Shown here: piece after piece, positions 5,525 to 31,834 of the stretch | Numbering within the stretch: the stretch's first letter is position 1 | How the letters are laid out: each line of letters begins with the position of its first letter | Origin: Candidatus Acidulodesulfobacterium acidiphilum | Lineage (GTDB): Bacteria; SZUA-79; Acidulodesulfobacterales; Acidulodesulfobacteraceae | Assembly (NCBI GenBank): GCA_008534395.1 | Contig: SHMQ01000025.1 | Location: forward strand, 1 to 31,834 | Direction: 5' to 3' | Length of the DNA stretch: 31,834 nucleotides | Program-made: the position numbers and the translations under genes | The notes under the pieces: model-generated | What the model was told of the DNA's origin: nothing | What the model saw: the letters and a program-made list of their open reading frames with translations, nothing else | Databases searched by the model: none

Positions 5525-6244
5525 ATGTTCGATATAAAAAAATTAAAAGAAAATCCGGATATTAATATATATTCAAAAAAGCAGGAAATACACTCTATAC
5601 TCAAGGGTTTTGCCAATCAAAAAAAACCCGTTATTATTTATCCGGTTCCTTTTAACGACGAATACACGACAAGTATTCTTAAAGTAAAAGACGACACTAT
5701 AACCGTAGATTCGCTTATTCCAAAGTCCGGAAATTTAAAAATGGCGGAGTCGTCTTATTTAAAAATAGCTTTTAAGTTTTCCAATAACGACCATTTTTTT
5801 CTGTCTAAACTTTATAATTACGAAAAAGACGGGGATTATTTCGTATTCGATATTTACAAGCCGATTGAAATATTATCTTTAGAAAAAAGAAAATTTTTCA
5901 GGATAGAACCCTCCATTAGCGAACCGGTTATCATATCTTTTTTTTATAACAATAAATATATAGAAACCCGGCTTTACGACCTTTCGGGCGAAGGTTTTTC
6001 TTTTTTATTGGATTTTCCTTTAGAAAAATATACTGTGCTTGAAAACGTTAAGATTAAGTTTCCGCTCGGACTTCCGGAAGTTACTCTGCGGCTTGAAATA
6101 ATGTCTAACGTCAGGTTGGATAATTTAAAATATAAAACCGGCGCTAAAGCTATAAATATAAAACCGGCACAGCAGGATATACTGTTTAACTATATTTTTA
6201 AAAGGCAGAGAGAGATAGTAGCCGCAATGAAAGGAACAGTTTAG
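5525..6244 (+). CDS. YcgR-like PilZ domain protein (cyclic-di-GMP receptor)
   Basis: The 239-residue protein has a two-domain YcgR layout. An N-terminal beta-rich region (about residues 15-112) is followed by a PilZ domain from about 118. Both c-di-GMP binding motifs are visible: the RxxxR-type EKRKFFRIEP (Arg122 and Arg126) and DLSGEGFSF (Asp152, Ser154, Gly157). In enteric bacteria YcgR binds the motor when c-di-GMP rises and slows or biases it, and the position inside a flagellar cluster fits such a brake. It follows the DsrE-like gene on the plus strand. Its TAG overlaps the TAA of the convergent FlhB-like gene by 3-4 bases, with no terminator hairpin between them. Binding-motif assignment is secure; action on the motor is inferred. 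Confidence 0.85.
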   Translation: MFDIKKLKENPDINIYSKKQEIHSILKGFANQKKPVIIYPVPFNDEYTTSILKVKDDTITVDSLIPKSGNLKMAESSYLKIAFKFSNNDHFFLSKLYNYEKDGDYFVFDIYKPIEILSLEKRKFFRIEPSISEPVIISFFYNNKYIETRLYDLSGEGFSFLLDFPLEKYTVLENVKIKFPLGLPEVTLRLEIMSNVRLDNLKYKTGAKAINIKPAQQDILFNYIFKRQREIVAAMKGTV

Positions 6245-6519
6245 CGAAGGCTTATTTTATCGTCCAGTTTGTATAAAAACGCAAAAATATTCGCTATAGC
6301 TTTATAAAGTTCCGGCGGTATTTCCTGATATATATCAAGTCCGTCGAGAATATCCGCAAGAGCGTCGTTTTGAGTAATCGGTATATTTTCTTTTTTAGCT
6401 ATCTCTAATATTTTTTCGGCAAATTCTCCCCTGCCTTTTGCTACTAAAACTGGAGCGCCGTTTTTTATGGGGTCGTATTTTAATGCCGCCGCTTTCTTGT
6501 TTTTTTTAAATTCTTTCAT
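6241..6519 (-). CDS. FlhB C-terminal-domain paralogue (YlqH/FhlB-like)
   Basis: This 92-residue soluble protein matches only the cytoplasmic tail of FlhB. Compare its AALKYDPIKNGAPVLVAKG with the tail of the full FlhB at 22256-23338 (VALKYDNKKHNAPVVIAKG), and its EIPPELYKAIANIFAFLY with the FlhB IPASLYKAVAEILAHLY. It lacks the membrane part and starts downstream of the NPTH autocleavage site, so it resembles the cleaved FlhB-CC fragment. Such proteins (YlqH in Bacillus, FhlB elsewhere) accompany flagellar genes and may modulate the export specificity switch. It overlaps the preceding FliK-like gene by 14 bases, which suggests coupled translation. Confidence 0.85.
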   Translation of the reverse strand: MKEFKKNKKAAALKYDPIKNGAPVLVAKGRGEFAEKILEIAKKENIPITQNDALADILDGLDIYQEIPPELYKAIANIFAFLYKLDDKISLR

Positions 6520-7648
6520 CTATTATTTTTCCGTTTAAAAATACGTAAGAGTTTGAGTCGTTTATATTTACGGGTACCGGATTAGCCTGTCCTCCTGCGG
6601 ACTCTGCATCATCGCCTTCCATTTCGTTTAGCTTATTTAATTCCATGTTTTTAAAAGAAATATCGTTAAGTTTTATTCCGTCCGACGACATCATTTCTTT
6701 TAATAATTCTAAGTTTTCTGATAAATTTTTTTTAAAAACGCCGGTATAGCTTTCAAATTTTATGCTTAAATTTTTGTCGTAGTAATAGGAAAAAAGTTTT
6801 AGCTTTCCTAAATTTTTTAAGTTTATTTCTATCATAAACAGATATTTTTTTTTGGAATTAGATAGATTTTTTTTATCGTCTTCTTTTTCATCCTCGTTTT
6901 TTACTTTATAATTAGAGCCGTCGGTGGTTAAAATTACCGTCGAAAGACCGAAGGAAACCCCAAAATCTATATGTATAAAGGCAAAATTTCCTTTAACCGA
7001 AACAGATATATTCTGAGCCGCATTTTGGAAAATATTTTGTATTTCGTTTGATAAACCCGAACTTATTTGGGAATTTTCTGAACCTAAGGAATTAAGCAGG
7101 GTTTCAAATTTCCCCTGAATATTTTCGACAACGGCCTTTCCGTATAAATCAAGAGTTTTTTGAATATTTACGGCATTTTCGCCCAACGATTCGTTTAAAA
7201 CCTTAAAAACTATGTTAAAATCAGCCGAAGAATTCGGGATATTTCCGGATATGTCTTGCGTTTCGGCTCCGCCGGTGGATTTATTCGTTACGCCGGAAGA
7301 TTTTGCGTTAATACTGCTTAACATAAGCTTTATAGGAATGGAGAACTCGCCGTTAAACGTTTTTCCGGTAACGAACTCGTTAAAAAGGTCTTCGGTTATA
7401 ACGGATTTCAACAAACTGCCGTTTATATCTATAATTCCGGTAAAAGTTCCGCCTTCGGAAACGGAAGCATCGACCAATTCGGCAGATACTATATCTCCCG
7501 CTTTAACTAAAGCGCCTGATTTTAAGGAATTGTCTTTTATGGCTCCAAAAAGTATCCGAGTAACGTCGTTGGAAGCATTTTTGGCTAAATCTTTCGCATT
7601 CCCTATAACATTAAGATATTTTGCCCCGCCGTCTATAATAAAGTTCAT
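6506..7648 (-). CDS. FliK-like hook-length-control domain protein (YlqG-like)
   Basis: The 380-residue product is weakly conserved but resembles FliK C-terminal domains in its last third: FMIEINLKNLGKLKLFSYYY (271-290), a helix NLSENLELLKEMM (308-320) and GIKLNDISF (324-332). Residues 1-110 form a separate beta-rich region (DIVSAELVDASVSEGGTFTG). It contains an acidic Lys/Asp insertion at about 250-267 (NEDEKEDDKK). Because it overlaps the FlhB-tail paralogue downstream, the pair mirrors ylqG-ylqH. A FliK/FlhB-tail interaction is known for the main export switch, and a parallel pairing here is inferred. A second, larger FliK lies at 30011-31834. It starts with a 4-base ATGA overlap with the upstream small gene. 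Confidence 0.6.
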   Translation of the reverse strand: MNFIIDGGAKYLNVIGNAKDLAKNASNDVTRILFGAIKDNSLKSGALVKAGDIVSAELVDASVSEGGTFTGIIDINGSLLKSVITEDLFNEFVTGKTFNGEFSIPIKLMLSSINAKSSGVTNKSTGGAETQDISGNIPNSSADFNIVFKVLNESLGENAVNIQKTLDLYGKAVVENIQGKFETLLNSLGSENSQISSGLSNEIQNIFQNAAQNISVSVKGNFAFIHIDFGVSFGLSTVILTTDGSNYKVKNEDEKEDDKKNLSNSKKKYLFMIEINLKNLGKLKLFSYYYDKNLSIKFESYTGVFKKNLSENLELLKEMMSSDGIKLNDISFKNMELNKLNEMEGDDAESAGGQANPVPVNINDSNSYVFLNGKIIDERI

Positions 7649-7941
7649 GCTACGATATCTATATGCTCTTTTCCGTCTTCGGCTTCCGTTTCGTTTTTTT
7701 CGTTCATTTCTTTTTCGTTTTTTTCTTCGTTATCGTGTTTCTTTTCTTTTTCCTTATCGTTGACCGCTTCCAGCGTTTCGCTTAATTCGACGACGGTATT
7801 AAGCTTAGTCTCATCGACTATTTCCATTTCTTTTTGAGTTATCGCGTTTGAATTTGCCGCAAGTACATGGGAAGAAGCCGCCGTTTTTTCTATCTGCGGA
7901 AGATTGGTGATAATCTGCTGGAGTTCTACGGTATCTATCAT
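7645..7941 (-). CDS. Small charged protein of unknown function
   Basis: I do not recognise this 98-residue protein. Its first half has a short amphipathic segment (MIDTVELQQIITNLPQIEK) and a neutral stretch. Residues 55-92 are almost entirely Glu, Lys, Asn and Asp, in repeated short blocks such as EEKNEKEMNEKNETE, and are probably disordered. No membrane segment or signal peptide is seen. It overlaps the FliK-like gene by 4 bases (ATGA) and follows the ParP-like gene after 22 bases, so it appears to be part of the same operon. The tight coupling is the main reason to call it real. Confidence 0.6.
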   Translation of the reverse strand: MIDTVELQQIITNLPQIEKTAASSHVLAANSNAITQKEMEIVDETKLNTVVELSETLEAVNDKEKEKKHDNEEKNEKEMNEKNETEAEDGKEHIDIVA

Positions 7942-7963: not shown

Positions 7964-8755
7964 TTACGATATTAAATAATTATAGACGTTTTTTAAGTCT
8001 ATAACTGAATAAAATTTCCCTTCTCCATCCTCGAAAACTCCGGAAGTTATGCCGTTAACGTTTTTAAATTTAAAAGACGAACCGGCTATAATGTTTTTAT
8101 TTTTTACGGCTGTTATGTTTTTTATTTCGTTTACCGCCAATCCGAAAAACTTGTCGTTATATACGCACACGACAATATATTTTAAGGGCGTTTTAATGTC
8201 TACGCTTCCGTTTGAAAGCAGGTAAAAATCATAAACCGGCACCATTCTGTTCCTGTATAGAATTATACCGAGATGAGCTGCTTTTTTTGAAAAAATACTA
8301 ACCGGAGTTTTATATTTTATAATCTCGTTAATATTTAAAGCCGGAATGCCGTAAAAAGAACTTCCTGCAATAAACGTAAAATAAGAAACTTCTTTTTCGA
8401 GGTCAAAATAAGGAACGGGCTGAACGCTTTCCGCCTGCATTTGAAAATTGGGCGTCTGCTGAATTGCGGCTGAGTTTAAATCTAATCCTTTTTTTTCTAA
8501 GTTATCCGCAACGGGCGCGGATACTATGCGTATATCGTAGGTTTCGCTTTCAGGCGGAGGATTTAACGCTGGAAATTCCGACTCGACGGTGAGTATTCTG
8601 TCTACGGGATAGGATAATATCTGAGCCGTCTGCTTTTCAGCATCGACGTTTTCGCCGCTTTTTTTATCTAAAAGGTCGTCTATCCACGGAGTAACTATGT
8701 CCGAACCTGCGGCTTTAGCGAATTTTAAATCAAATAAATTATAAGTATTATTCAT
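7964..8755 (-). CDS. parP: ParP-like protein: disordered N-terminus plus CheW-like domain
   Basis: The 263-residue protein has a low-complexity N-terminal region (1-120, with a Pro-rich patch NPPPES) and a C-terminal CheW-like domain (about 122-263). The domain starts EVSYFTFIAGSSFYGIP, has GIILYRNRMVPVYDFYLL in place of the usual GVINLRGxVxPVxDL, and then FFGLAVNEIKNITAV. In Vibrio, ParP has this design: its CheW-like domain inserts into chemotaxis arrays while the remainder binds ParC. The immediately preceding gene is a ParA-type ATPase with a 4-base ATGA overlap, and a true cheW sits just before that, matching the Vibrio set. Function as the ParC-array linker is inferred from architecture and order. 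An auxiliary CheW is the alternative. Confidence 0.7.
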   Translation of the reverse strand: MNNTYNLFDLKFAKAAGSDIVTPWIDDLLDKKSGENVDAEKQTAQILSYPVDRILTVESEFPALNPPPESETYDIRIVSAPVADNLEKKGLDLNSAAIQQTPNFQMQAESVQPVPYFDLEKEVSYFTFIAGSSFYGIPALNINEIIKYKTPVSIFSKKAAHLGIILYRNRMVPVYDFYLLSNGSVDIKTPLKYIVVCVYNDKFFGLAVNEIKNITAVKNKNIIAGSSFKFKNVNGITSGVFEDGEGKFYSVIDLKNVYNYLIS

Positions 8756-9567
8756 ATTTTGCCTTCCTCCCCCGATTCGACGGAACTGTTAAAACCGTCT
8801 ATTATTTCTCTCGCTACGTTAATATAGTCCATAGCGCCTCTTGCATGCACGTCTATATAAGTAAGCGGTTTTCTGAGCATGCTTGCGTCTTTAAATCTGG
8901 TATCGATATTAATTATACTATGAAAATGAGTATTTTTATATTTATTTTTAAAATATTCAAGAGATTTCAAAGATGAATTCGTCCTTTTATCGAACATAGT
9001 AATTAAAAGCCTGTAAGAACATTTATAGTCGAGAGCCTTTTCTATTTTATCTATCGTAGAAAGCAGAAGCTCGACGCCCCTGACCGATAAAAAATCGGAC
9101 ATTACGGGAACGATAATTTCGTCGCATGCCGCTACCGCGCTTATAAGCAATACGCTCAACGCAGGCGAAGAATCTATTAATATATAGTCGTAATTATCGC
9201 AGAAAAACTTTAATTTCTCTTTTAGCCTTAAACCGCCGCCTTTAGAGTTGGAAAGTTCCGCCTCTATTCTCGCGAGATTTATATTGGACGGTATAAGGTC
9301 TAAACAGCCGCCGTTCTTAAGTCTGTATTTGTTTATCAGGACGTCTGCCGGATTTATAGAATCCGACATTATAAGGTTGGCTACGGAATATTCAAGCTTT
9401 TCCGGCTCGACGGCAAGATGGTTCGTAAGACTTGCCTGAGGGTCTAAATCTATCAAAAGTACTCTGTATCCGAAAACGGAAAGAGAGCTTCCAAGCGTAA
9501 TAGTAGTAGTAGTTTTGCCTACTCCTCCCTTCTGGTTTGCGGTTGCAAAGATATACGGAGATTTCAT
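8752..9567 (-). CDS. parC: ParC-like ParA ATPase for chemotaxis-array positioning
   Basis: The 271-residue protein is a ParA/MinD-class ATPase. It has a deviant Walker A KGGVGKTTT at residues 13-21 with the signature Lys, a switch I-like LLIDLDPQASLT (37-48) and a Walker B region YDYILIDSSP. There is no DNA-binding N-terminal extension, so it is a short ParA. No parB or parS-like partner is near. Instead it sits between cheW and a CheW-domain gene inside the chemotaxis operon, as ParC does in Vibrio, where it recruits signalling arrays to the pole. A generic chromosome-partition ParA is less likely given the context. It begins with a clean ATG 5 bases after the cheW stop. Confidence 0.75.
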   Translation of the reverse strand: MKSPYIFATANQKGGVGKTTTTITLGSSLSVFGYRVLLIDLDPQASLTNHLAVEPEKLEYSVANLIMSDSINPADVLINKYRLKNGGCLDLIPSNINLARIEAELSNSKGGGLRLKEKLKFFCDNYDYILIDSSPALSVLLISAVAACDEIIVPVMSDFLSVRGVELLLSTIDKIEKALDYKCSYRLLITMFDKRTNSSLKSLEYFKNKYKNTHFHSIINIDTRFKDASMLRKPLTYIDVHARGAMDYINVAREIIDGFNSSVESGEEGKI

Positions 9568-9572
9568 TTAAA

Positions 9573-10082
9573 TCACTTTATCATGCCTTCTATAAGTTTA
9601 TGCTCTCCAGTCGTAAATATCTTATCTATATCTAAAAGTATTATCAGTCTTTCGTCGAGTTTTCCGACGCCTTTAATATAGTCGGAATCAAGTCCTGCTA
9701 TTAACGGCGGCGGCGGCTGTATGGTCGAAGAGTTAATCCTTAAAACTTCCGACACGCTGTCCACGATTAAACCTATAGTTTTATTCATTATGTTTACTAC
9801 GATAATTCTGGTTTCTTTAGTCGCTTCTTTAATATTAAGATGGAATTTCTTTCTTATATCCACTATAGGTATGACCCTTCCTCTTAAATTGATTACCCCT
9901 TCTACAAAATCGGGAGCTTTTGGAACTTTTGTAATTTCGACTACCCTGTTTATCTCCTGAACTTTTAAAATATCCAGCGCAAATTCTTCGTTGCCTAATT
10001 TAAAAGTAACAAGCTGGACTATTTCGTCCGACGAAGAATGTTCCCCTGCGGAAACTTGGTTTTTTTTATTTTCCGTATCCAT
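9573..10082 (-). CDS. cheW: Chemotaxis coupling protein CheW
   Basis: CheW joins receptors to the CheA kinase in the array. The 169-residue protein has a short polar N-terminus (about 20 residues) and then the complete CheW fold: VQLVTFKLGNEEFALDILKV, EINRVVEITKVPKAPDFVEG, GVINLRGRVIPIVDIRKKF and IGLIVDSVSEVLRI. All canonical positions are intact, unlike the ParP-like gene two genes downstream. It lies between cheB and the parC-like gene, and the 49-base gap to cheB contains a ribosome site (AGGAGG). No receptor gene is present in the window. Confidence 0.96.
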   Translation of the reverse strand: MDTENKKNQVSAGEHSSSDEIVQLVTFKLGNEEFALDILKVQEINRVVEITKVPKAPDFVEGVINLRGRVIPIVDIRKKFHLNIKEATKETRIIVVNIMNKTIGLIVDSVSEVLRINSSTIQPPPPLIAGLDSDYIKGVGKLDERLIILLDIDKIFTTGEHKLIEGMIK

Positions 10083-10131: not shown

Positions 10132-11217
10132 TCAACACTCCGTCTCTCTAATAATTTGGTCGGATATTTTATATATCGGCAGAATCGAATCGGCAACGCC
10201 GGCATCGACTACGGCTTTCGGCATACCGTAAACGACGCAGGTAGCTTCGTCCTGCGCTATGGTTCTGCCGCCGCTCTCTTTAATTTTTTTCATACCGGCA
10301 AGACCGTCGGAACCCATACCGGTCAATATAACGCCGAGAGCCCTGCCCGGATATAATTTTGCGACCGATTCCATCATTACCGAAACGGACGGTCTGTTTA
10401 TAAGGTCTTCGGGCTCCGTAGAAAGCGAAATTTTATAACCTTCCCTTAAGTCTTTAACTAAAGTCAAATGCTTATCTCCAGGCGACAAATAGGCGTTTCC
10501 GGGTTTAATTATTTCTCCTCCGGATGCTTCTGAAACTTTTATGTGAGATAAAGACGACAGCCTTTCTGCAAAAGAACCCGTAAACGCTTTTGGCATATGC
10601 TGGACGAGAATAATAGGCACCGGAAAATTTCCCGGAATTTTAGGTATAACGTCCTGCAGGGCTTTTGGTCCGCCGGTAGAAGAACCTATCGCTACGATAT
10701 CTATTTTACCGCCGTTTTTGCGGTTACAAGAAGCCTCTATCGATGATCCTTCCTGGTTAATTTTGTTAGCCTTAGGTTCTGCCTCATGTTTTTCGCTTTT
10801 CCTGAAAAAATATTTTTTTGCGGTAATAGCTCTTATTTTAGAAACTAAACCGTCTTTTACTTTTAAAATATTAAGCGATACGTTTGAAAGGTTTTTCGGA
10901 ATATAATCGGCCGCCCCTATATCTAAAGCGTCCAATGTTTCTTTGGCTCCTTCCTCAGTCAACGAACTAAGCATTATGACGGGCAAAGGATGTTTCTCCA
11001 TAATTATCTTAAGCGCGGTAAGTCCGTCCATAACGGGCATTTCTATATCCATAGTAACTATATCGGGTTTTAACTCCTGTATCTGCCGTATTCCTTCCTC
11101 GCCGTTTTTCGCCATTCCTACGACTTTAATATCGTCGACGTCGTCGAAAAAAGAACTTATAGCCCTCCTCATAAAAGGCGAATCGTCGACTATTAAAACC
11201 CTTATAGGTTCAGCCAT
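10132..11217 (-). CDS. cheB: Receptor methylesterase/deamidase CheB
   Basis: CheB removes methyl groups from receptors when phosphorylated by CheA, giving adaptation. The 361-residue protein has an N-terminal receiver domain (Asp11-Asp12, phospho-Asp57 in TMDIEMP, Lys108), a linker of about 35 residues, and a C-terminal esterase domain. The catalytic triad is visible: Ser180 in IGSSTGGP, His207 in LVQHMP and Asp304 in TGMGSDG. Its length and layout are ordinary. The product has a polar end, ETEC. cheR, which does the opposite reaction, is at 14278-15120. GGAGC lies before the ATG. Confidence 0.97.
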   Translation of the reverse strand: MAEPIRVLIVDDSPFMRRAISSFFDDVDDIKVVGMAKNGEEGIRQIQELKPDIVTMDIEMPVMDGLTALKIIMEKHPLPVIMLSSLTEEGAKETLDALDIGAADYIPKNLSNVSLNILKVKDGLVSKIRAITAKKYFFRKSEKHEAEPKANKINQEGSSIEASCNRKNGGKIDIVAIGSSTGGPKALQDVIPKIPGNFPVPIILVQHMPKAFTGSFAERLSSLSHIKVSEASGGEIIKPGNAYLSPGDKHLTLVKDLREGYKISLSTEPEDLINRPSVSVMMESVAKLYPGRALGVILTGMGSDGLAGMKKIKESGGRTIAQDEATCVVYGMPKAVVDAGVADSILPIYKISDQIIRETEC

Positions 11218-11282: not shown

Positions 11283-13373
11283 TTATCTTAAGCTTACGGC
11301 ATCTATCATAGACGCAACGTCGATAATTAAAACTACTTTTCCGTCTCCGGTTATAGTAGCGCCGGAAATACCTTTGTATCCAAGCTGGTAATCTCCTAGT
11401 GATTTAATGACTACTTCCTCCTGTCCGAACAGGTCGTCCACTACTATGCCTATTTTTTTCTCGGCAAGAGCTACTACTACTACATAAATTTCTCTGTCGG
11501 AAGATTTAGCGTTTACGGAAGAAACGGCGCTTTCGCTTACGCCGAATTCTTCTCCGAGCCTCAACAATGAAAGTACCGATTTTCTTAAATTGATGACCTC
11601 GTGCTTATCTATAGTCTGTATTGTCGATTCTTTTATCCTTAAAGTCTCCACTACCGAATTTAAAGGTATCGCAAATACTTCGTCTCCTATGCCTACTATT
11701 AAAGTCTGTATGATTGCGACCGTAAGCGGAAGTTTTAATATTATAGTCGAACCCTGTCCCGGAACTGAATTAATTTCTATAATACCGTTAAGTTTTTGAA
11801 TATTCGTCTTAACGACGTCCATTCCTACCCCTCTTCCGGATATCTCGGTAGCTTTGTCTTTCGTGCTGAAACCGGGAGCAAAAATAAGATTTAAAGCATC
11901 TTTGTCCGAAAGGCTCGCCGCGGTTTTTTCGTCTATTACTCCTTTTTCTACGGCTTTTCTTTTTATTATCGCAGGGTCCATTCCTTTGCCGTCGTCTAAA
12001 ACCGATATAATAATGTAATTGCCCTCATGCTCGGCGCCTAACCTTATAGTTCCTCTTTCGGGCTTCCCGTTTAATTTTCTGGTTTCTTTGTCTTCGACTC
12101 CGTGGTCGACGCTGTTTCTGATTAAATGAACCAACGGATCTCCTATCTCTTCGATGACTGATTTATCAAGTTCGGTTTCTTCGCCTGAAATTAGAAGTTC
12201 TATATCTTTGCCTAGTTCCCTTGAAAGGTCTCTTACCATCCTTGGGAATTTACTGAAAACCTTTTTTACCGGCTGCATTCTAGTTTTCATAACGGCAAGC
12301 TGCAGATCCGTCGTTACAAGATTAAGCCCTGCCACTACCTGCGCAAGGGTGGAAGAGATATCGTCGTCGGCATACTTTATTTCCAGTTTTGAAGATATAT
12401 TAAAAAGCCTGTTTCTTGCAAGAACCAGCTCGCCTACTAAATTCATAACGTTGTCTAATCTTTCTATGTCTACCCTTATAGTCGTTTCTTTAATTTCCGC
12501 GGCCGGAGATGCTGTAGGAACTGCAAAAGCAGGCTTAGCGGCAGCGGCAGAAACCGGTTTCTGCGGGACGGGATTAGATTTAATCTCTTCGGCAGGTTTG
12601 CCGGAAACTTGTTTTTCTTCGGCAGACTGGAAAGCTTTAGCCGACGCCGAAGGATGAGGTATTTCTTCCGCCGAAACTTCCGGCACTGCGGTAACTTTTT
12701 CCGCCGTATGTTCTTCTTCCTCTTTTTCTTTATAAATCTCTTCTAATTCTTCTTTTGAAATAAGATTGTCCTCAAGAAGTATGTCTCCAAGGCTTCTTGG
12801 TTTCTTTTTTCCGGAATCCGGCATTTTATCGGCAGAATCTACGGTCTTGGTTTTTTCTTTATCTGCATCTGCAACCGCTGCATTAGGAACTTCTTTGTCC
12901 TGCGTCTCCGGAGCGGCTATAGCGGTATTAGAATTAGAAACCTCGGCAGACGTTTTTTTTTCGCTTCCGCCGCCGATGCCTTCCGACAATTCGTTAAGTT
13001 TTTTAATAAGTCCTGTATTGCCTTCCGGCGGCTCGCCTTCGCTGCCGGTTTCCGAAACGGTTACTATCATAGACCTTAGGACGTCCATAGTTTTTAAGAG
13101 ATAATCGGTCATTTCGGAAGTAAGGGTTATTTCGCCCTGCCTTAATTTATTAAGAATATTTTCGGCGCTGTGCGCAAGTTCTACTATGTTTTGAAAACCA
13201 AGAAATCCCGCAGAACCTTTAACGGTATGCGCAGCCCTGAATATAGTATTCAAAATTTCTTTATCTTCGGGATTTTTTTCCAATTCTATAAAATTTTCGT
13301 TAAGGCTATCCAGAAGTTCCAGTGCTTCCTGAATAAAGTCGTTTACAATTTCCTGCATCGAATCGTCAATCAT
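11283..13373 (-). CDS. cheA: Chemotaxis histidine kinase CheA
   Basis: CheA is the array kinase that phosphorylates CheY and CheB. The 696-residue protein has, in order: P1 Hpt domain with the phosphorylated His49 in AAHTVKGSAGFLG; a long Ala/Pro/Glu-rich linker (about 135-295); P3 dimerisation helices starting TTIRVDIERLDNVMNLVGEL (297-316); P4 ATPase with N box HLIRNSVDHG (416-425), G1 DDGKGMD (460-466), F box FAPGFST and G2 GRGVGMD (513-519); and a P5 CheW-like domain to the end. No recognisable P2 CheY-binding domain is seen. Instead the linker contains a short island, SLGDILLEDNLISKEELEEI (194-213), discussed in the findings. All catalytic motifs are intact. Confidence 0.97.
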   Translation of the reverse strand: MIDDSMQEIVNDFIQEALELLDSLNENFIELEKNPEDKEILNTIFRAAHTVKGSAGFLGFQNIVELAHSAENILNKLRQGEITLTSEMTDYLLKTMDVLRSMIVTVSETGSEGEPPEGNTGLIKKLNELSEGIGGGSEKKTSAEVSNSNTAIAAPETQDKEVPNAAVADADKEKTKTVDSADKMPDSGKKKPRSLGDILLEDNLISKEELEEIYKEKEEEEHTAEKVTAVPEVSAEEIPHPSASAKAFQSAEEKQVSGKPAEEIKSNPVPQKPVSAAAAKPAFAVPTASPAAEIKETTIRVDIERLDNVMNLVGELVLARNRLFNISSKLEIKYADDDISSTLAQVVAGLNLVTTDLQLAVMKTRMQPVKKVFSKFPRMVRDLSRELGKDIELLISGEETELDKSVIEEIGDPLVHLIRNSVDHGVEDKETRKLNGKPERGTIRLGAEHEGNYIIISVLDDGKGMDPAIIKRKAVEKGVIDEKTAASLSDKDALNLIFAPGFSTKDKATEISGRGVGMDVVKTNIQKLNGIIEINSVPGQGSTIILKLPLTVAIIQTLIVGIGDEVFAIPLNSVVETLRIKESTIQTIDKHEVINLRKSVLSLLRLGEEFGVSESAVSSVNAKSSDREIYVVVVALAEKKIGIVVDDLFGQEEVVIKSLGDYQLGYKGISGATITGDGKVVLIIDVASMIDAVSLR

Positions 13374-15142: not shown

Positions 15143-17131
15143 TCATCCGTTAATTAATTCTATAGAAAAATTCTTTATATCTTCATCTTTTGAAGAATTA
15201 TATTTCTTAATAATAGAATTAGATTTTTCTTTGTTTAAAACGTGAAGCGTTTTTAAAAGGGCAATTTTAACCATTTTGCTTTTTTCGGCGGGAAGCATGG
15301 AAGCAAGCTTGTCGAATATATCTTTTGCGCCTGTTTTCTGAATAAGCTCCACCACTTTATATCTGAAAATTTCGGAAAAACCTCCCGATTTAAGAGCTTC
15401 TAAGTAAACAGGCGATTTTTTTTCTCCTGCCGATAAAAGCGATTCTAAATAGTTAAACCTGGTTTCTTCGTCGTTTTCTTCAAACAGAAAAGTCGTTTCG
15501 TCTTTATGGTTTATTAAATCGAATTTCGCAAGACTTTTCGCAAGCAGTCTTTTTAAATTTAAAGGTTTATTTTTAAATAAAGCTATCGTCGAATAAAAAT
15601 CGGCGGTTTGTCCGGCATTCAGGCTAATTTTATCGGACGACAGTATCCTTAAAGAGTACTCTGCCGCTTTATCGTTTTTAGAAGAAATATTTTTGATGAA
15701 AAATTTAATATATTCTCCGTTTTTATCTTGCGCCGCAAAGTTAGAAAGCGTTTCTACATAAGCGTCTATTACGTCGGCATATTTCTCTTTAAGAAGATTT
15801 TCAAAAAACTTTTCAATATATTTTGAAGCATATTGAAAATTTCCGGCAAGTTTTACGGCATATTTCCTGACGTCTCCGTTGGCGTCGCCTATATAGCTTT
15901 TAGCTACCTCTTCGATAAGCCTGCGTTCGTATAAAGCTCCGCTGAGTTTAGCCGAATATTTTAAAAGCAGAATTTTTACTTCGACGAAAAGTTTTTTGTC
16001 TCCATAAAAAACAAGCAGATCGATTATGTCTTTATATGCGGATTCCGATAAAACATCGATAAGAATATCGGTTTTATCGTTATATTCAGATGAAGGACTT
16101 AACTTCATTAAAAATTCCGTTATAAATTTAGGTCTCGCCAATTTTTTTATTATTTCTTTAATGTATTTATACTCATTTTCGTCTAAGTTTTCATTTTTTT
16201 TGTAATATTCAAAAATAAATTGAAACAGTTTTTGGGATTTTTTATGATTCATAATCGAAAAATAGCACAAAATGGCGTCGATAGCATCTTTTTCTTCATA
16301 ATCGCTTAACAGGTATAAACTCATTTTCAAATTCATTTTAGACAGGCGGATATACATTTTCGTTTTTACGTCGGCGCTTTCGTCTGCGCCGCACTCGTCC
16401 GTTATGCATAATTTATAAAGACCTTTAAGAATATAAACTTTATCTAATTTATACTTAACGTTGTTTTTTAAAACGTCGAGCAGGAAAACTATAATTTCGT
16501 CCCCGCCTATTTTAGAAAGAGATTCTATAATTACGTTTTTAACTACCCTGTCGTCGGCTTTTAAAAACAATTCTTTTAACGCCGGAAAAGCTTTTTTAAG
16601 TTTAAGCTCTCCCACGGCAAAAACGGCTGCCGACAGAACGAAAAAATTGCTTTTGGCCTCTTTTACCGATTTAATCAATATGCCGCCTAAATCTATTTTC
16701 AATATACCGATGGATTCCAGAGCATTTGCTTTGGTAATTTCGTCGGAGCTTGACGCAAGTATTTTTAAAACTTCCTTAGGCAGGTCGGCAGGATTGAACT
16801 TTCCGTATCTTATTAATTCGGCTGTAATTCTGTCGTATTTTCCTTTGTTTTTGCCTGCAAAATAGATTAGAAAGTTGCCGTCATGCATAGCAAGCCGTTT
16901 TAACACGTCAAAGGCGTTTGACCTGAGCCTGATGCCTATATCCGAAGAAACTGCGGTGTCCATTAATTTTTTGACGAGTTCTTTTTTGTCCCGCCCTTCT
17001 ATTTCGTTTATTATAGCATCTTGCGCATATTCTGCAGTTTCAGGATTATCAGAGTCTAAAAGTTCTACTAATTTCTTTTTTTCGTCGATGCTTCCGAACT
17101 TAATTATTTTTTCGATTTCTTTCTTATTCAT
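15143..17131 (-). CDS. HEAT-repeat protein between fliA and cheR
   Basis: The 662-residue protein is almost wholly alpha-helical with repeated helix pairs of the HEAT type. Examples are the opening KKKLVELLDSDNPETAEYAQ (about residues 17-36), AVGELKLKKAFPALKELFLK (around 170) and DDRVVKNVIIESLSKIGGDE after it, and later ANGDVRKYAVKLAGNF. No signal peptide, membrane segment or catalytic motif is seen, so it is probably a cytoplasmic scaffold. Its start overlaps the end of fliA by 8 bases and cheR follows after 22 bases, so it is made with the sigma factor and the chemotaxis proteins. Its specific partner is unknown. Lys-rich composition resembles its neighbours, so there is no sign of recent transfer. 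Confidence 0.75.
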   Translation of the reverse strand: MNKKEIEKIIKFGSIDEKKKLVELLDSDNPETAEYAQDAIINEIEGRDKKELVKKLMDTAVSSDIGIRLRSNAFDVLKRLAMHDGNFLIYFAGKNKGKYDRITAELIRYGKFNPADLPKEVLKILASSSDEITKANALESIGILKIDLGGILIKSVKEAKSNFFVLSAAVFAVGELKLKKAFPALKELFLKADDRVVKNVIIESLSKIGGDEIIVFLLDVLKNNVKYKLDKVYILKGLYKLCITDECGADESADVKTKMYIRLSKMNLKMSLYLLSDYEEKDAIDAILCYFSIMNHKKSQKLFQFIFEYYKKNENLDENEYKYIKEIIKKLARPKFITEFLMKLSPSSEYNDKTDILIDVLSESAYKDIIDLLVFYGDKKLFVEVKILLLKYSAKLSGALYERRLIEEVAKSYIGDANGDVRKYAVKLAGNFQYASKYIEKFFENLLKEKYADVIDAYVETLSNFAAQDKNGEYIKFFIKNISSKNDKAAEYSLRILSSDKISLNAGQTADFYSTIALFKNKPLNLKRLLAKSLAKFDLINHKDETTFLFEENDEETRFNYLESLLSAGEKKSPVYLEALKSGGFSEIFRYKVVELIQKTGAKDIFDKLASMLPAEKSKMVKIALLKTLHVLNKEKSNSIIKKYNSSKDEDIKNFSIELING

Positions 17132-17963: not shown

Positions 17964-18821
17964 TTAAGATAACGACGTCAGCAGTTTATTAAGGAAGAAC
18001 TGGATGTTGCCGTTAGATATTTTATTGTCTTTTTGAGACAATATATTATACGCCAATTTTTTAAAACATTGCGATGATTTTGAATCGGGAAAAATATTTG
18101 AAACCGGCCTCTGCATTATCACCGAACGCGAAAGATTATCGTCGCTTATAATATGCCCCAGATAATTTAAATTTACTTTAAGAAATTTATCGGAAACGAG
18201 ACTTAAGTGTTTATAAACGTCCTTTGCTTCTTTTTCGCTTTTTACGTTATTAACTATAATCGAAAAATACTTTTCGCCGTATTTAGTGCTTAAAACCTTA
18301 ATCAGAGCGTAAGCGTCGGTAATGGAAGTCGGTTCCGGAGTAACTACGACGTATATTTCGCTTGCGGCGAGGTTAAAATATAAAACGTTTGACGATATAC
18401 CCGCTCCGGTGTCAACGAGCAGAACGTCTATCGGCTGTCCCCCCGCTTCTAAACTGCAGGCAAATTCGTCGAATCTCGACATAAGATTTATCTTCTGCGG
18501 TTCCGTAAGATTAGAAAGTTCAGGTATTCCGGAGGAGGCCGGAAGAATCATAATTCCGTTCTGGTCGGTCATTATAATATCGCTTAACTGCTTATCTCCG
18601 TATATAACCTGCGATATATTGTGTTTTGGAATCATGCCCATCAAAACCGAAACGTTTCCTAAACTCAGGTCTGCATCCATTATTATAACTTTTTTCCCCA
18701 TCGAAGCAAAGCAATAAGCAAGATTGCAGACGATATTAGTTTTGCCTACTCCTCCTTTGCCGCTTGTAACGGAAATTATTTTCGTGTATGAATTGCCGTT
18801 TATGTTTACTTGTCTTTTCAT
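17964..18821 (-). CDS. flhG: Flagellar number regulator FlhG (MinD-like ATPase)
   Basis: The 285-residue protein is a MinD/ParA-type ATPase. It has Walker A GKGGVGKT (21-28), Asp49 in IIMDADLSLGNV, switch II VLLVDTGAGIS (133-143) and the C-terminal FlhG helix signature NIQFFLNKLLTSL. FlhG limits flagellar number, stimulates FlhF GTP hydrolysis and, in many species, restrains the master regulator. The N-terminus is short (MKRQVNINGNSYTKI) and no DQAxxLR activator motif is seen. It follows flhF in transcription, but unlike most neighbours it is separated on both sides by palindromic repeats. A ribosome site GAGGA precedes the ATG. Confidence 0.93.
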   Translation of the reverse strand: MKRQVNINGNSYTKIISVTSGKGGVGKTNIVCNLAYCFASMGKKVIIMDADLSLGNVSVLMGMIPKHNISQVIYGDKQLSDIIMTDQNGIMILPASSGIPELSNLTEPQKINLMSRFDEFACSLEAGGQPIDVLLVDTGAGISSNVLYFNLAASEIYVVVTPEPTSITDAYALIKVLSTKYGEKYFSIIVNNVKSEKEAKDVYKHLSLVSDKFLKVNLNYLGHIISDDNLSRSVIMQRPVSNIFPDSKSSQCFKKLAYNILSQKDNKISNGNIQFFLNKLLTSLS

Positions 18822-18926: not shown

Positions 18927-20126
18927 TTAGAGCGATGCAGGCTTTGGGAAAAATAAGGGGTAAATGTTGCCTGCATTTGCTTCTTCGATATCTTCTGGGA
19001 CGTTTTCGCCGTAAGATACATAATCTACTGCGGAATCTTCAAGCATAAACAAACCTGCAAGATTGCCGATGCCTTTCGATTCGTCGGTTTTAGTTATTAT
19101 AATTCCGTTAACTCCTATTTTATTCCTGAATGATTCATACGACCTTAAAGCGTCGATATGTTTAAAATGCGCCGGAACTATAAGTTCTATATTAACCGAA
19201 CCCTTAAGTCCTTCAAAAAATTTAGATAGAGCGTTTAAACGGTAAACGTTATTATGGTTAACCGCGAATGTATCTATTATTACGACGTCAGAACGCGAAC
19301 CGGCGATAAAAGCATTTAATCCCGAAGGATCCTTTGCTGTAGTAAAATCTATTTTAAGCTTCCCCGCATAATTTTTTAAAGTTTCATATCCTCCCATTTT
19401 TAAAGAATCTATGGAGCATAAAGAAACGTGAAGATTTTTCTCGTAGATAAACTTAGAGCATAACTTTGCGGCTGCCGACGTTTTACCGGAGCCGCTGTTG
19501 CCGGCAACGGCTATTACTATTTTTCCGTTCAAAGAACGGACGAATTTTTTTCTTTCGGTTTTTTTCTCGATTATTTTCTTGAAAAATTTCTTGAAATATT
19601 CGATTTTGTCTTCTTTCTTAAAATTAGACAATGTTATCCCTTTAAAAAATATATCTATTAATTTAGAAGATACGCTTCTGTCAAAAGAAATACCGTCCAG
19701 ATAAAGCAGCAAATCGTTTTCTTTGAGTCCTCCTCCCTGCGTTCTTTCGTTTTTCAGCAAGTTTAAATCGAACTTTATTTCCTCCATGAAATTCTTTATT
19801 TCCTCAAATTTGACGTTAAGAGCATAATCGACTTTGTCTTCGACTATGCTGTCGAAATTTTCCTTTAAAAATCTGACGTCGTCGTAAATAGGCGCAAGCA
19901 TGTCTTTATTAAAACATGCTGCTTCGTCTTTAGGAGGCATTATATCTTCTTCTTTATAATCGATAGCCGCGATAACTTCCAGAAACGGTTTGCCGAAAAA
20001 ACCAAGCTCGCCGGCGGCGCCGTTAACCTGCCTTGTAGAAATAATAAGCGCATCTTCGCCGAGATCTTTTTTTATAAGGTCTATCGCATCTTTAATGTCT
20101 AAAACTTCGTATCTTTTAATCTGCAT
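18927..20126 (-). CDS. flhF: Flagellar SRP-like GTPase FlhF
   Basis: FlhF marks the site of flagellar assembly, usually the pole. The 399-residue protein has the FlhF N-terminus (MQIKRYEVLDIKDAIDLIKKD...), a central B domain of charged helices, and a C-terminal SRP-type NG domain. Visible motifs are the P-loop AGNSGSGKTSAAAKL (208-222), CSIDSLKMGGYETLKNYA (237-254), IIDTFAVN (283-290), TKTDESKGIGN (345-355) and YGENVPEDIEEA (372-383). The order matches FlhF, but the G3 element is DTFAVN rather than the usual DTAGR/M type, and the P-loop is unusual for the family. Activity may therefore be altered. It is preceded by flhA (23-base gap). Confidence 0.92.
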   Translation of the reverse strand: MQIKRYEVLDIKDAIDLIKKDLGEDALIISTRQVNGAAGELGFFGKPFLEVIAAIDYKEEDIMPPKDEAACFNKDMLAPIYDDVRFLKENFDSIVEDKVDYALNVKFEEIKNFMEEIKFDLNLLKNERTQGGGLKENDLLLYLDGISFDRSVSSKLIDIFFKGITLSNFKKEDKIEYFKKFFKKIIEKKTERKKFVRSLNGKIVIAVAGNSGSGKTSAAAKLCSKFIYEKNLHVSLCSIDSLKMGGYETLKNYAGKLKIDFTTAKDPSGLNAFIAGSRSDVVIIDTFAVNHNNVYRLNALSKFFEGLKGSVNIELIVPAHFKHIDALRSYESFRNKIGVNGIIITKTDESKGIGNLAGLFMLEDSAVDYVSYGENVPEDIEEANAGNIYPLFFPKPASL

Positions 20127-30010: not shown

Positions 30011-31834
30011 TTATACGAAATAATCTACTAATGCATTCGGATTGCCGTATCTTGAATCGTTTGTTCCGGCGGAAACCGTTTGCGTTTCTGCGCCTCCGTT
30101 TGAAAATCCGGAATTATAACCTGCATTGCCAGAAGTAAAAGCATTATTGAAAGACTCGTTTGCGCCGCCGCCGTTGCCGTTATTATAACCCGAACCGGTG
30201 CTTATATTCAAATTTATGGTAGAAAACCCCTGATTTTTAAGGGCGCTCTGCAGAGAATCCGAGGATGCCTGAAGCGCATTTTTTGCCGCTTCATTCTGCG
30301 CAAGCATATTGACCGTTATAGAGCCGCCCGAAGAAATCGCTTGATTAAATGCGTTTAAAGAATTTGACGGATTTAATGAAATATTTATTTTGACCGTGCC
30401 GAGCGAAGCCGGATTTAACGTAATAACAGCCGACTGGACGTTTCTTCTCAACATAAACATAACCGAATTAATCGCTAAAGAACCGGTAGTTTCACCTGCC
30501 GTATCGTCTTCGAGTCCCGACACGCCGTTACCGGTCAAACTGAAACCTGCGGAATTTCCGCCGGAAGCGGAAAGCGGATCTGAACCTGAGCCGGCTGAAA
30601 CCGCCGAACCTGCGACGCCGAAAAAATTTGAAGATAAAGAACCGGAATCTCCGGCTTTTAAACTGCCGGCAGAGTTAATTCCGGAAGATACCGCTGAACC
30701 GGAAAGCGATAAACCTGCGCTGGACGAATTTTTAATACTTTCTGAATTAAGAGCATTATTTTTAATATCCTCGTTCAGCGTTTTTGCGTTTTGAGCGTTT
30801 ATAACGCTCATATTTACATCGGCTTTTACGCCGTTATTTGCGGCGTTTGCATTAAAAATATTAATTTTATTTGCATCGGCGGTATTAGAATTAGGGTTTG
30901 CTTTGTTTGCGGCGGTTTTGTCCGTAATAATTTGGTTATAGGTAATTTTATTAGCAGCAACGTCTGATGATTTAGACGATGAACCGTCTGCGGAAACTGC
31001 TGCTGAGTTATTACGTACCGAAGCCTGATAGTCTTTGCCGTTAATATTTTTAACGTTATCCGCAAGCGCATTTATACCTGAATAATTGCTCCCGATATTT
31101 CCGGCATTGGAACCTCCGTCCGATACCTGCGTCCCGTTTGCGTTTAAGAGTGAAACGTTTACATCATGCTTTGATTTTGAATTTGCGCCTTCCGATGCGT
31201 TTCCGTTTCCACCCGTACCGCCCGATTTTACGTCTATTTTTTTTGCTGAGGGTAATTGTCCTGCAAAATTAATATTCGTATTTCCTATGAAATAAACGTT
31301 TCGTTCGTCGCGAATATTAGCGTTACCGTTTAGTACGGTATTTCCGCCTTTTTCCGAAGCGGTTTTATAGGATTTAGAGGAATCGTTGGACGTATGTTCC
31401 GTATTCCCATTTTTGCTTGAAACCTGCGATGAATCGCCGTTAGAAGCGGAAATTTTTGCGGCGCTTTTGCCTATGTCAGCGTTTGAATGTCCGCCGCCGG
31501 TATTATTATTATTTACAGGCTGACCCGCCTGATAACCGTTACCATTATTCGGCGAACTTCCGCTTATATTGTTTTCCGTCTGAGCGCCGTTATTATTGCC
31601 GACAGCATTCGCGCCGTTATTAAGTTGTTGACCCGTTGACGAAACAGGTGTCGATGTTTCGGCAGTATTGCCTGCCTGACCGCCTCCGTAAACATTAGAC
31701 GCTCCGCCTGCAGACTGAAACGCTCCGCCTTGATTTTGACCGCCGTCCGAAACGGAAGAAGCGGCATTAGACAAGCCGCTTATAGAGTTACCGAGCATTT
31801 CGCCGAACGACCCCTGCCCGCCGAAACCCGACGA
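30011..31834 (-). CDS. fliK: Hook-length control protein FliK (frame open at right edge)
   Basis: FliK measures hook length and triggers FlhB. The first Met in the frame is at 31796-31798 (595 residues), but the frame continues without a stop for 12 more codons to the window edge (SSGFGGQGSFGE...), so the true start is probably beyond it. About 400 residues are Asn/Ser/Gly/Ala-rich and of low complexity. The C-terminal FliK domain is recognisable about 150 residues from the end: MLRRNVQSAVITLNPASLGT, VKINISL, GSITVNMLAQNEAAKNALQA, SSDSLQSALKNQGFSTINLN. A Gly/Asn-rich tail follows. It precedes fliJ by about 50 bases. Confidence 0.85.
   Translation of the reverse strand, partial: SSGFGGQGSFGEMLGNSISGLSNAASSVSDGGQNQGGAFQSAGGASNVYGGGQAGNTAETSTPVSSTGQQLNNGANAVGNNNGAQTENNISGSSPNNGNGYQAGQPVNNNNTGGGHSNADIGKSAAKISASNGDSSQVSSKNGNTEHTSNDSSKSYKTASEKGGNTVLNGNANIRDERNVYFIGNTNINFAGQLPSAKKIDVKSGGTGGNGNASEGANSKSKHDVNVSLLNANGTQVSDGGSNAGNIGSNYSGINALADNVKNINGKDYQASVRNNSAAVSADGSSSKSSDVAANKITYNQIITDKTAANKANPNSNTADANKINIFNANAANNGVKADVNMSVINAQNAKTLNEDIKNNALNSESIKNSSSAGLSLSGSAVSSGINSAGSLKAGDSGSLSSNFFGVAGSAVSAGSGSDPLSASGGNSAGFSLTGNGVSGLEDDTAGETTGSLAINSVMFMLRRNVQSAVITLNPASLGTVKINISLNPSNSLNAFNQAISSGGSITVNMLAQNEAAKNALQASSDSLQSALKNQGFSTINLNISTGSGYNNGNGGGANESFNNAFTSGNAGYNSGFSNGGAETQTVSAGTNDSRYGNPNALVDYFV

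Follow-up and report, generated by a model that had tools for sequence, protein, structure and literature searches.

Organization of the locus

The window, i.e. the whole 31,834-nucleotide stretch of Candidatus Acidulodesulfobacterium acidiphilum DNA analyzed here, carries on its minus strand the genes flhA-flhF-flhG-fliA-HEAT protein-cheR-response regulator-cheY-cheA-cheB-cheW-parC-parP in this order, followed by two further genes, of which the first encodes a 98-aa protein and the second is FliK-like (Table 1). An earlier sequence-only reading had described a ParA-type ATPase gene overlapping an adaptor gene by four bases, placed directly after cheB-cheW, with flhF and flhG upstream and no parB nearby. 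Both open reading frames are present as described, cheB and cheW lie directly upstream of the pair, and flhF and flhG are found further upstream. No parB occurs in the window, and the two further ParAs of the genome, encoded on contigs C1 and C2, are each adjacent to their own ParB. The gene order is also rearranged, as had been noted: cheW precedes parC here, in contrast to the order cheA-cheB-...-parC-parP-cheW in Gammaproteobacteria.

Table 1. Coordinates of the genes and protein features discussed in the text (window positions)
Feature	Position	Strand	Remark
parC-like gene, ParA-type ATPase, 271 aa	8752..9567	-	Walker A NQKGGVGKTTT
parP-like gene, CheW-like adaptor, 263 aa	7964..8755	-	4-bp overlap with parC
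ParC signature region FDKRT...DTRFKDAS, residues 192-229	8881..8994	-	not in ParB-linked ParA
Adaptor N-terminal motif WIDDLL, residues 24-29	8669..8686	-	W24, L28, L29 invariant in host family
Adaptor segment YPVDRILT, residues 49-56, disordered region	8588..8611	-	Y49, P50, L55 invariant; family-specific
Adaptor CheW-fold (AIF-like) domain, residues 117-263	7967..8407	-	I236 at V. cholerae W305 position
cheW (ordinary)	9573..10082	-	
cheB	10132..11217	-	
cheA	11283..13373	-	P1, long linker without EFxxLLDxLHG repeats, P3-P4-P5
CheA-linker conserved segment SLGDILLEDNLISKEELEEIYKEKEEE	12711..12794	-	candidate LID replacement
flhG, MinD-type ATPase for flagellum	17964..18821	-	
flhF	18927..20126	-	

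Several other genes of the cluster were annotated. The HEAT-repeat protein (662 aa; window 15143-17131, minus strand), encoded between fliA and cheR, is conserved at 33-95% in the family operon. The 98-aa protein (window 7645-7941, minus strand), between parP and the FliK-like gene, is conserved at its N-terminus and has a charged tail of low complexity, and it gave no Pfam or NCBIfam match. Two FliK-like (Flg_hook) genes occur in this one flagellar cluster (window 6506-7648 and 30011-31798, minus strand), the former matching only below Pfam's cut-off. A 92-aa FlhB C-terminal-like protein (TIGR00789; window 6241-6519, minus strand) has homologues near cheW in many gammaproteobacterial loci too, on the opposite strand. 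The gene for a divergent YcgR-like PilZ protein (window 5525-6244) lies on the plus strand inside a cluster that is otherwise on the minus strand.

Conservation in the host genome and family

The assembly (2.09 Mb, 70 contigs) encodes a single CheA, and the pair sits inside the only intact che operon. Four CheW domains were counted in the genome, namely those of cheW, CheA-P5, the adaptor and one CheV. Receptor genes number seven, including one cut by a contig end; membrane segments are predicted in four of the products, and at least two of the seven are predicted to have none.

The host family as a whole retains the order HEAT-cheR-RR-cheY-cheA-cheB-cheW-parC-parP, with identities of 63-98% for ParC and 35-91% for the adaptor. 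Given this conservation of operon order and of ParC, the pairing is not a matter of chance. CheA was found in 24 of the 30 host-family genomes and ParC in 23 of these; in the sole cheA-bearing genome without ParC, the contig ends inside cheA. Neither ParC nor the adaptor was found in the six family genomes that lack CheA, two of which are 99-100% complete. In one relative (L166, G008:C78) the cluster occurs a second time in partly degraded form, with full cheA and cheB and fragments of flhG, fliA and cheY; no parC was found in that copy.

Related loci in other lineages

A set of patterns, the generic ParA string ANQKGGVG among them, was used to scan 84,980 species genomes, and the matches were ranked by similarity to the ATPase of the window. 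Among the matches listed, the best-scoring ones included the Gammaproteobacteria Guyparkeria, Marinobacter, Moritella, Shewanella, Pseudomonas, Photobacterium, Colwellia and Oceanimonas, whose ParC loci have the order flhA-flhF-flhG-fliA-cheY-cheA-cheB-...-parC-adaptor-cheW. At least seven of the che loci with parC and parP are from Pseudomonas (L094, L095, L100, L104, L105, L118 and L136), so the published statement that related genes are missing from P. aeruginosa (PMC12410967) is worth re-checking. The second group among the matches listed comes from Desulfovibrionaceae and is arranged as cheR-parA-cheW-RR-cheA. In its loci L073 and L109 the gene after the che-linked ParA encodes a CheW whose N-terminal extension carries FLDKYL, and CheA has about 1000 residues; this arrangement may represent a third variant of the module.

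When a set of 386 genomes, mostly spread over Bacteria, was searched with a profile of che-linked ParCs, the matches outside the host family comprised a single genome of the Desulfovibrio type, two genomes arranged in the gamma order, and a che-linked ParA of a different kind that matched more weakly. These matches share only the domain with the host taxonomically, which places the host in neither the gammaproteobacterial nor the desulfovibrionacean phylum. The weaker match (G054:C19, L172; NPKGGCGKTTT) follows three cheW genes and precedes a gene for a non-CheW protein. With 250 bits, three CheWs and a different partner it was set apart from ParC, and it is possibly another type of partitioning system.

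The adaptor and its probable contact with CheA

The sequence-only reading had given the adaptor a disordered N-terminus and a divergent C-terminal CheW domain, and structure prediction and domain searches bear this out. AlphaFold pLDDT is below 50 for residues 1-116, the C-terminal domain resembles CheW structures in a Foldseek comparison, and residues 125-257 match Pfam CheW with E=9e-19, compared to E=1.5e-43 for the adjacent ordinary CheW, so that the label of a divergent CheW is right. Near the N-terminus, a motif [FYW][LIVF]xx[LMY][LM], a pattern defined after the sequences were seen, occurs in all adaptors of the host family (18/18), of Gammaproteobacteria (25/25) and in the partners from Desulfovibrionaceae (2/2), against means of 0.35, 0.41 and 0.04 sequences, respectively, in shuffled sequences. 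In Vibrio ParP it is the N-terminus that binds ParC (PMC5706961), and we propose WIDDLL as a candidate ParC-binding helix. The overall plan is that of ParP, with an N-terminal motif, a variable linker and a C-terminal CheW-fold domain.

The CheW-fold domain itself departs from ParP at the known contact residues. V. cholerae ParP binds CheA through W305 (PMC5706961, PMC7534058). At this column, which was identified in Photobacterium as lying 96 residues from L209, all 16 gammaproteobacterial adaptors have W, in contrast to I or L in all eight adaptors of the host family. The columns of the receptor-binding residues L196, L209 and L212 hold F/L, A/S/V and I in the host family; the hydrophobicity of the groove is partly kept and the residues mostly differ from ParP.

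CheA differs in parallel. Two or three EFxxLLDxLHG repeats lie between the end of P1 and P3 in all 24 gammaproteobacterial CheAs, versus none in the 21 CheAs of the host family. A LID segment has been described between P2 and P3 of CheA and reported to contact W305 (PMC5706961, PMC7534058), and from their position and partner species we take the repeats to be LID. Because W305 and LID reportedly touch each other, their joint absence is coherent, and it suggests that the contact with CheA has been replaced in the host family. An LGDILLEDNL-type segment of the CheA linker, present in 21/21 host-family and 0/24 gammaproteobacterial CheAs, is a candidate substitute for the contact of the Vibrio type; with one occurrence in 15 scannable CheAs from other genomes, it is not confined to this system. 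A fuller version, in which the adaptor-CheA contact was re-invented, with the LGDILLEDNL segment as the tether, possibly together with YPVxxILT or the CheW-fold domain, and with a landmark other than HubP or FimV, is speculative and in our judgment rather improbable as a whole.

The ancestry of the adaptor is a separate matter from its function. An adaptor not descended from ParP, recruited independently as a copy of CheW that became the new partner of a ParC ATPase in this lineage and perhaps of common origin with the ParA-linked CheW of Desulfovibrio, is a contender, to which we assign a little under an even chance; this reading concerns descent only and is compatible with a function like that of ParC-ParP. 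It agrees with the CheW-domain tree, where the host-family adaptor lies outside the gamma ParP, CheW and P5 clades and joins the Desulfovibrio protein (97/89, with long branches involved), and also with the absence of both W305 and the LID-region repeats. The same long branches weaken it, as do the AU tests, which reject neither a union with gamma ParP (p=0.40) nor one with ordinary CheW (p=0.38), and the N-terminal motif and gene order shared with gamma ParP. As for the ParP identity claimed from the sequence, the architecture stands; an orthologous ParP domain is not supported, given the missing W305, the join to Desulfovibrio CheW and the repeat-less CheA. Judged by its predicted plan and residues, the adaptor is a diverged or independent ParP analogue.

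The ATPase and its site of action

The ATPase was assigned to Pfam AAA_31 (E=9e-47). In a ParA tree built without PpfA, the host family, gamma ParC and the Desulfovibrio ATPases are split from ParB- and ScpA-linked ParAs with support of 100/97. Forcing the host family together with 33 ParB-linked ParAs was rejected by the AU test (p=7.3e-5), as was a union of the family with the host's chromosomal ParA (p=2.2e-6) or plasmid-type ParA (p=0.03). The sister relation of the host family and gamma ParC is less firm (86/43, with long branches involved), and AU does not reject its alternatives. A ParC signature, DTxF..[AS]S, accompanied by a one-residue deletion in the alignment, is present in all 45 che-linked sequences (18/18 of the host family, 25/25 gamma, 2/2 Desulfovibrionaceae) and in none of 62 others; as it was read off the same sequences, it describes the split and is no independent test of it. 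With held-out sequences, a similar profile of che-linked ParC scored at least 327 bits for che-linked and at most 252 bits for ParB-linked proteins. A grouping with ParB-linked chromosomal ParA is rejected by the AU tests and opposed by tree, signature and profile, and the ParA-family tree that the sequence-only reading had called for favors che-linked ParC. By group, signature and profile the predicted ATPase is a good ParC.

Where such an ATPase would hold the array is less clear. Searches of the genome with the FimV_core and FimV_Cterm profiles gave no match above cut-off, and no control genome exceeded the cut-off either; the landmark, if any, is therefore different or unrecognised. The sequence-only reading had claimed polar placement of the array; polar anchoring is a step that we can only infer, with no HubP or FimV landmark found. 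A mode like that of Rhodobacter sphaeroides PpfA, in which the ATPase uses the nucleoid instead of a polar landmark with the CheW-like adaptor as the link between array and DNA-bound ATPase, appears unlikely, though well short of negligible. The known PpfA partner in R. sphaeroides is TlpT, a soluble receptor. At least two of the seven receptors here lack predicted membrane segments, in keeping with such a mode, as is the failure to find HubP/FimV in the genome. ParAs without ParB are moreover common in che operons (37% of 206 species) and have been read as PpfA homologues (PMC2829493), and nucleoid binding has also been predicted for ParC (PMC10241942). Against this, four receptors are membrane proteins, flhF and flhG belong to this cluster, an arrangement shared with polar-flagellated Gammaproteobacteria, and the adaptor has the architecture of ParP, unlike the soluble receptor that serves in R. 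sphaeroides. Finally, the capture by the operon of an ordinary ParA from a plasmid or chromosome, with the CheW-like gene encoding an unrelated second coupling protein, is highly improbable: the ParA-type fold and the best PDB sequence matches (chromosomal Soj/ParA) would agree with it, but the tree, signature and profile tests are all contrary, two ParAB pairs are already present in the genome, and the whole host family keeps the parC-parP overlap and order.

Proposed mode of action

The overlap with the gene for a CheW-fold adaptor, the ParC grouping, the lack of ParB and the co-occurrence with cheA lead us to consider it likely that the pair is an array-positioning module working like ParC-ParP. 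In the mechanism we envisage, the ATPase would dimerise with ATP and mark a cellular site, with the flagellated pole as the likeliest one. The WIDDLL helix at the N-terminus of the adaptor would bind the ATPase, and the CheW-fold domain would insert into the receptor-CheA-CheW lattice through its CheW-like groove. The array would thereby be tethered, and one would be inherited by each daughter cell. With both W305 and the LID-region repeats missing, the contact with CheA would be unlike that of Vibrio. Patterning, motif binding, lattice insertion, and polar tethering and inheritance are all steps that we infer.

Read in this way, the constant part of ParC-type positioning would be the ATPase with a short N-terminal motif of its partner, and the variable parts would be the way in which CheA is contacted and, probably, the landmark. 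The system is extended to a lineage outside Pseudomonadota, and what is new is this lineage together with the altered CheA interface. The locus also adds one more case in which flagellum and array have separate ATPases in one gene cluster.

Comparison with known systems

The occurrence of ParC-ParP outside Vibrio, which the sequence-only reading had put forward, holds for this genome in that the pair is present; it is not new, given the cases of Halothiobacillus (PMC10241942) and P. putida (PMC12918733) and the loci of Shewanella, Marinobacter, Pseudomonas, Colwellia and further genera. The Vibrio cholerae and V. parahaemolyticus systems (PMC5706961, PMC7534058) are alike in having an ATPase beside a CheW-fold adaptor, a flagellar-che cluster and no ParB, and Vibrio ParP has an N-terminal ATPase-binding part, predicted here, and a linker. 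In contrast, cheW precedes parC in the host, which lies outside Pseudomonadota and has neither W305 nor the CheA LID-region repeats, and HubP was not found there; for these comparisons, Photobacterium (Vibrionaceae) stood in for the Vibrio sequences.

The Hn0722/Hn0723 pair of Halothiobacillus neapolitanus resembles that of the host in its overlapping ATPase and adaptor genes, its che operon and a separate FlhG for the flagellum, and ParC was demonstrated there experimentally (PMC10241942). It is needed for polar chemotaxis clusters: CheY normally forms one polar focus and becomes diffuse in ~80% of cells once the equivalent ATPase is deleted (PMC10241942). Compared in its stead, the related genus Guyparkeria shows the gamma order of genes and carries the repeats in CheA. 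For Pseudomonas putida and Shewanella, ParC/ParP orthologues are cited in PMC12918733, and the same two-gene module was seen in synteny in several species of Pseudomonas and Shewanella. Their adaptor has W305 and their CheA has the repeats, and the title of the work cited there names FimV as a partner.

The Desulfovibrionaceae loci L073 and L109 share with the host the ATPase group and an N-terminal motif on CheW (FLDKYL), and they hold the nearest CheW-domain relatives in the tree. They differ in their order cheR-parA-cheW-RR-cheA and in their longer CheA of ~1000 residues. Rhodobacter sphaeroides PpfA, too, is a ParA-type ATPase encoded in a che operon that has no ParB; in contrast to the mode proposed here, the cluster that it positions is cytoplasmic and placed on the nucleoid, and PpfA has a soluble receptor as its partner (in part after PMC10241942).
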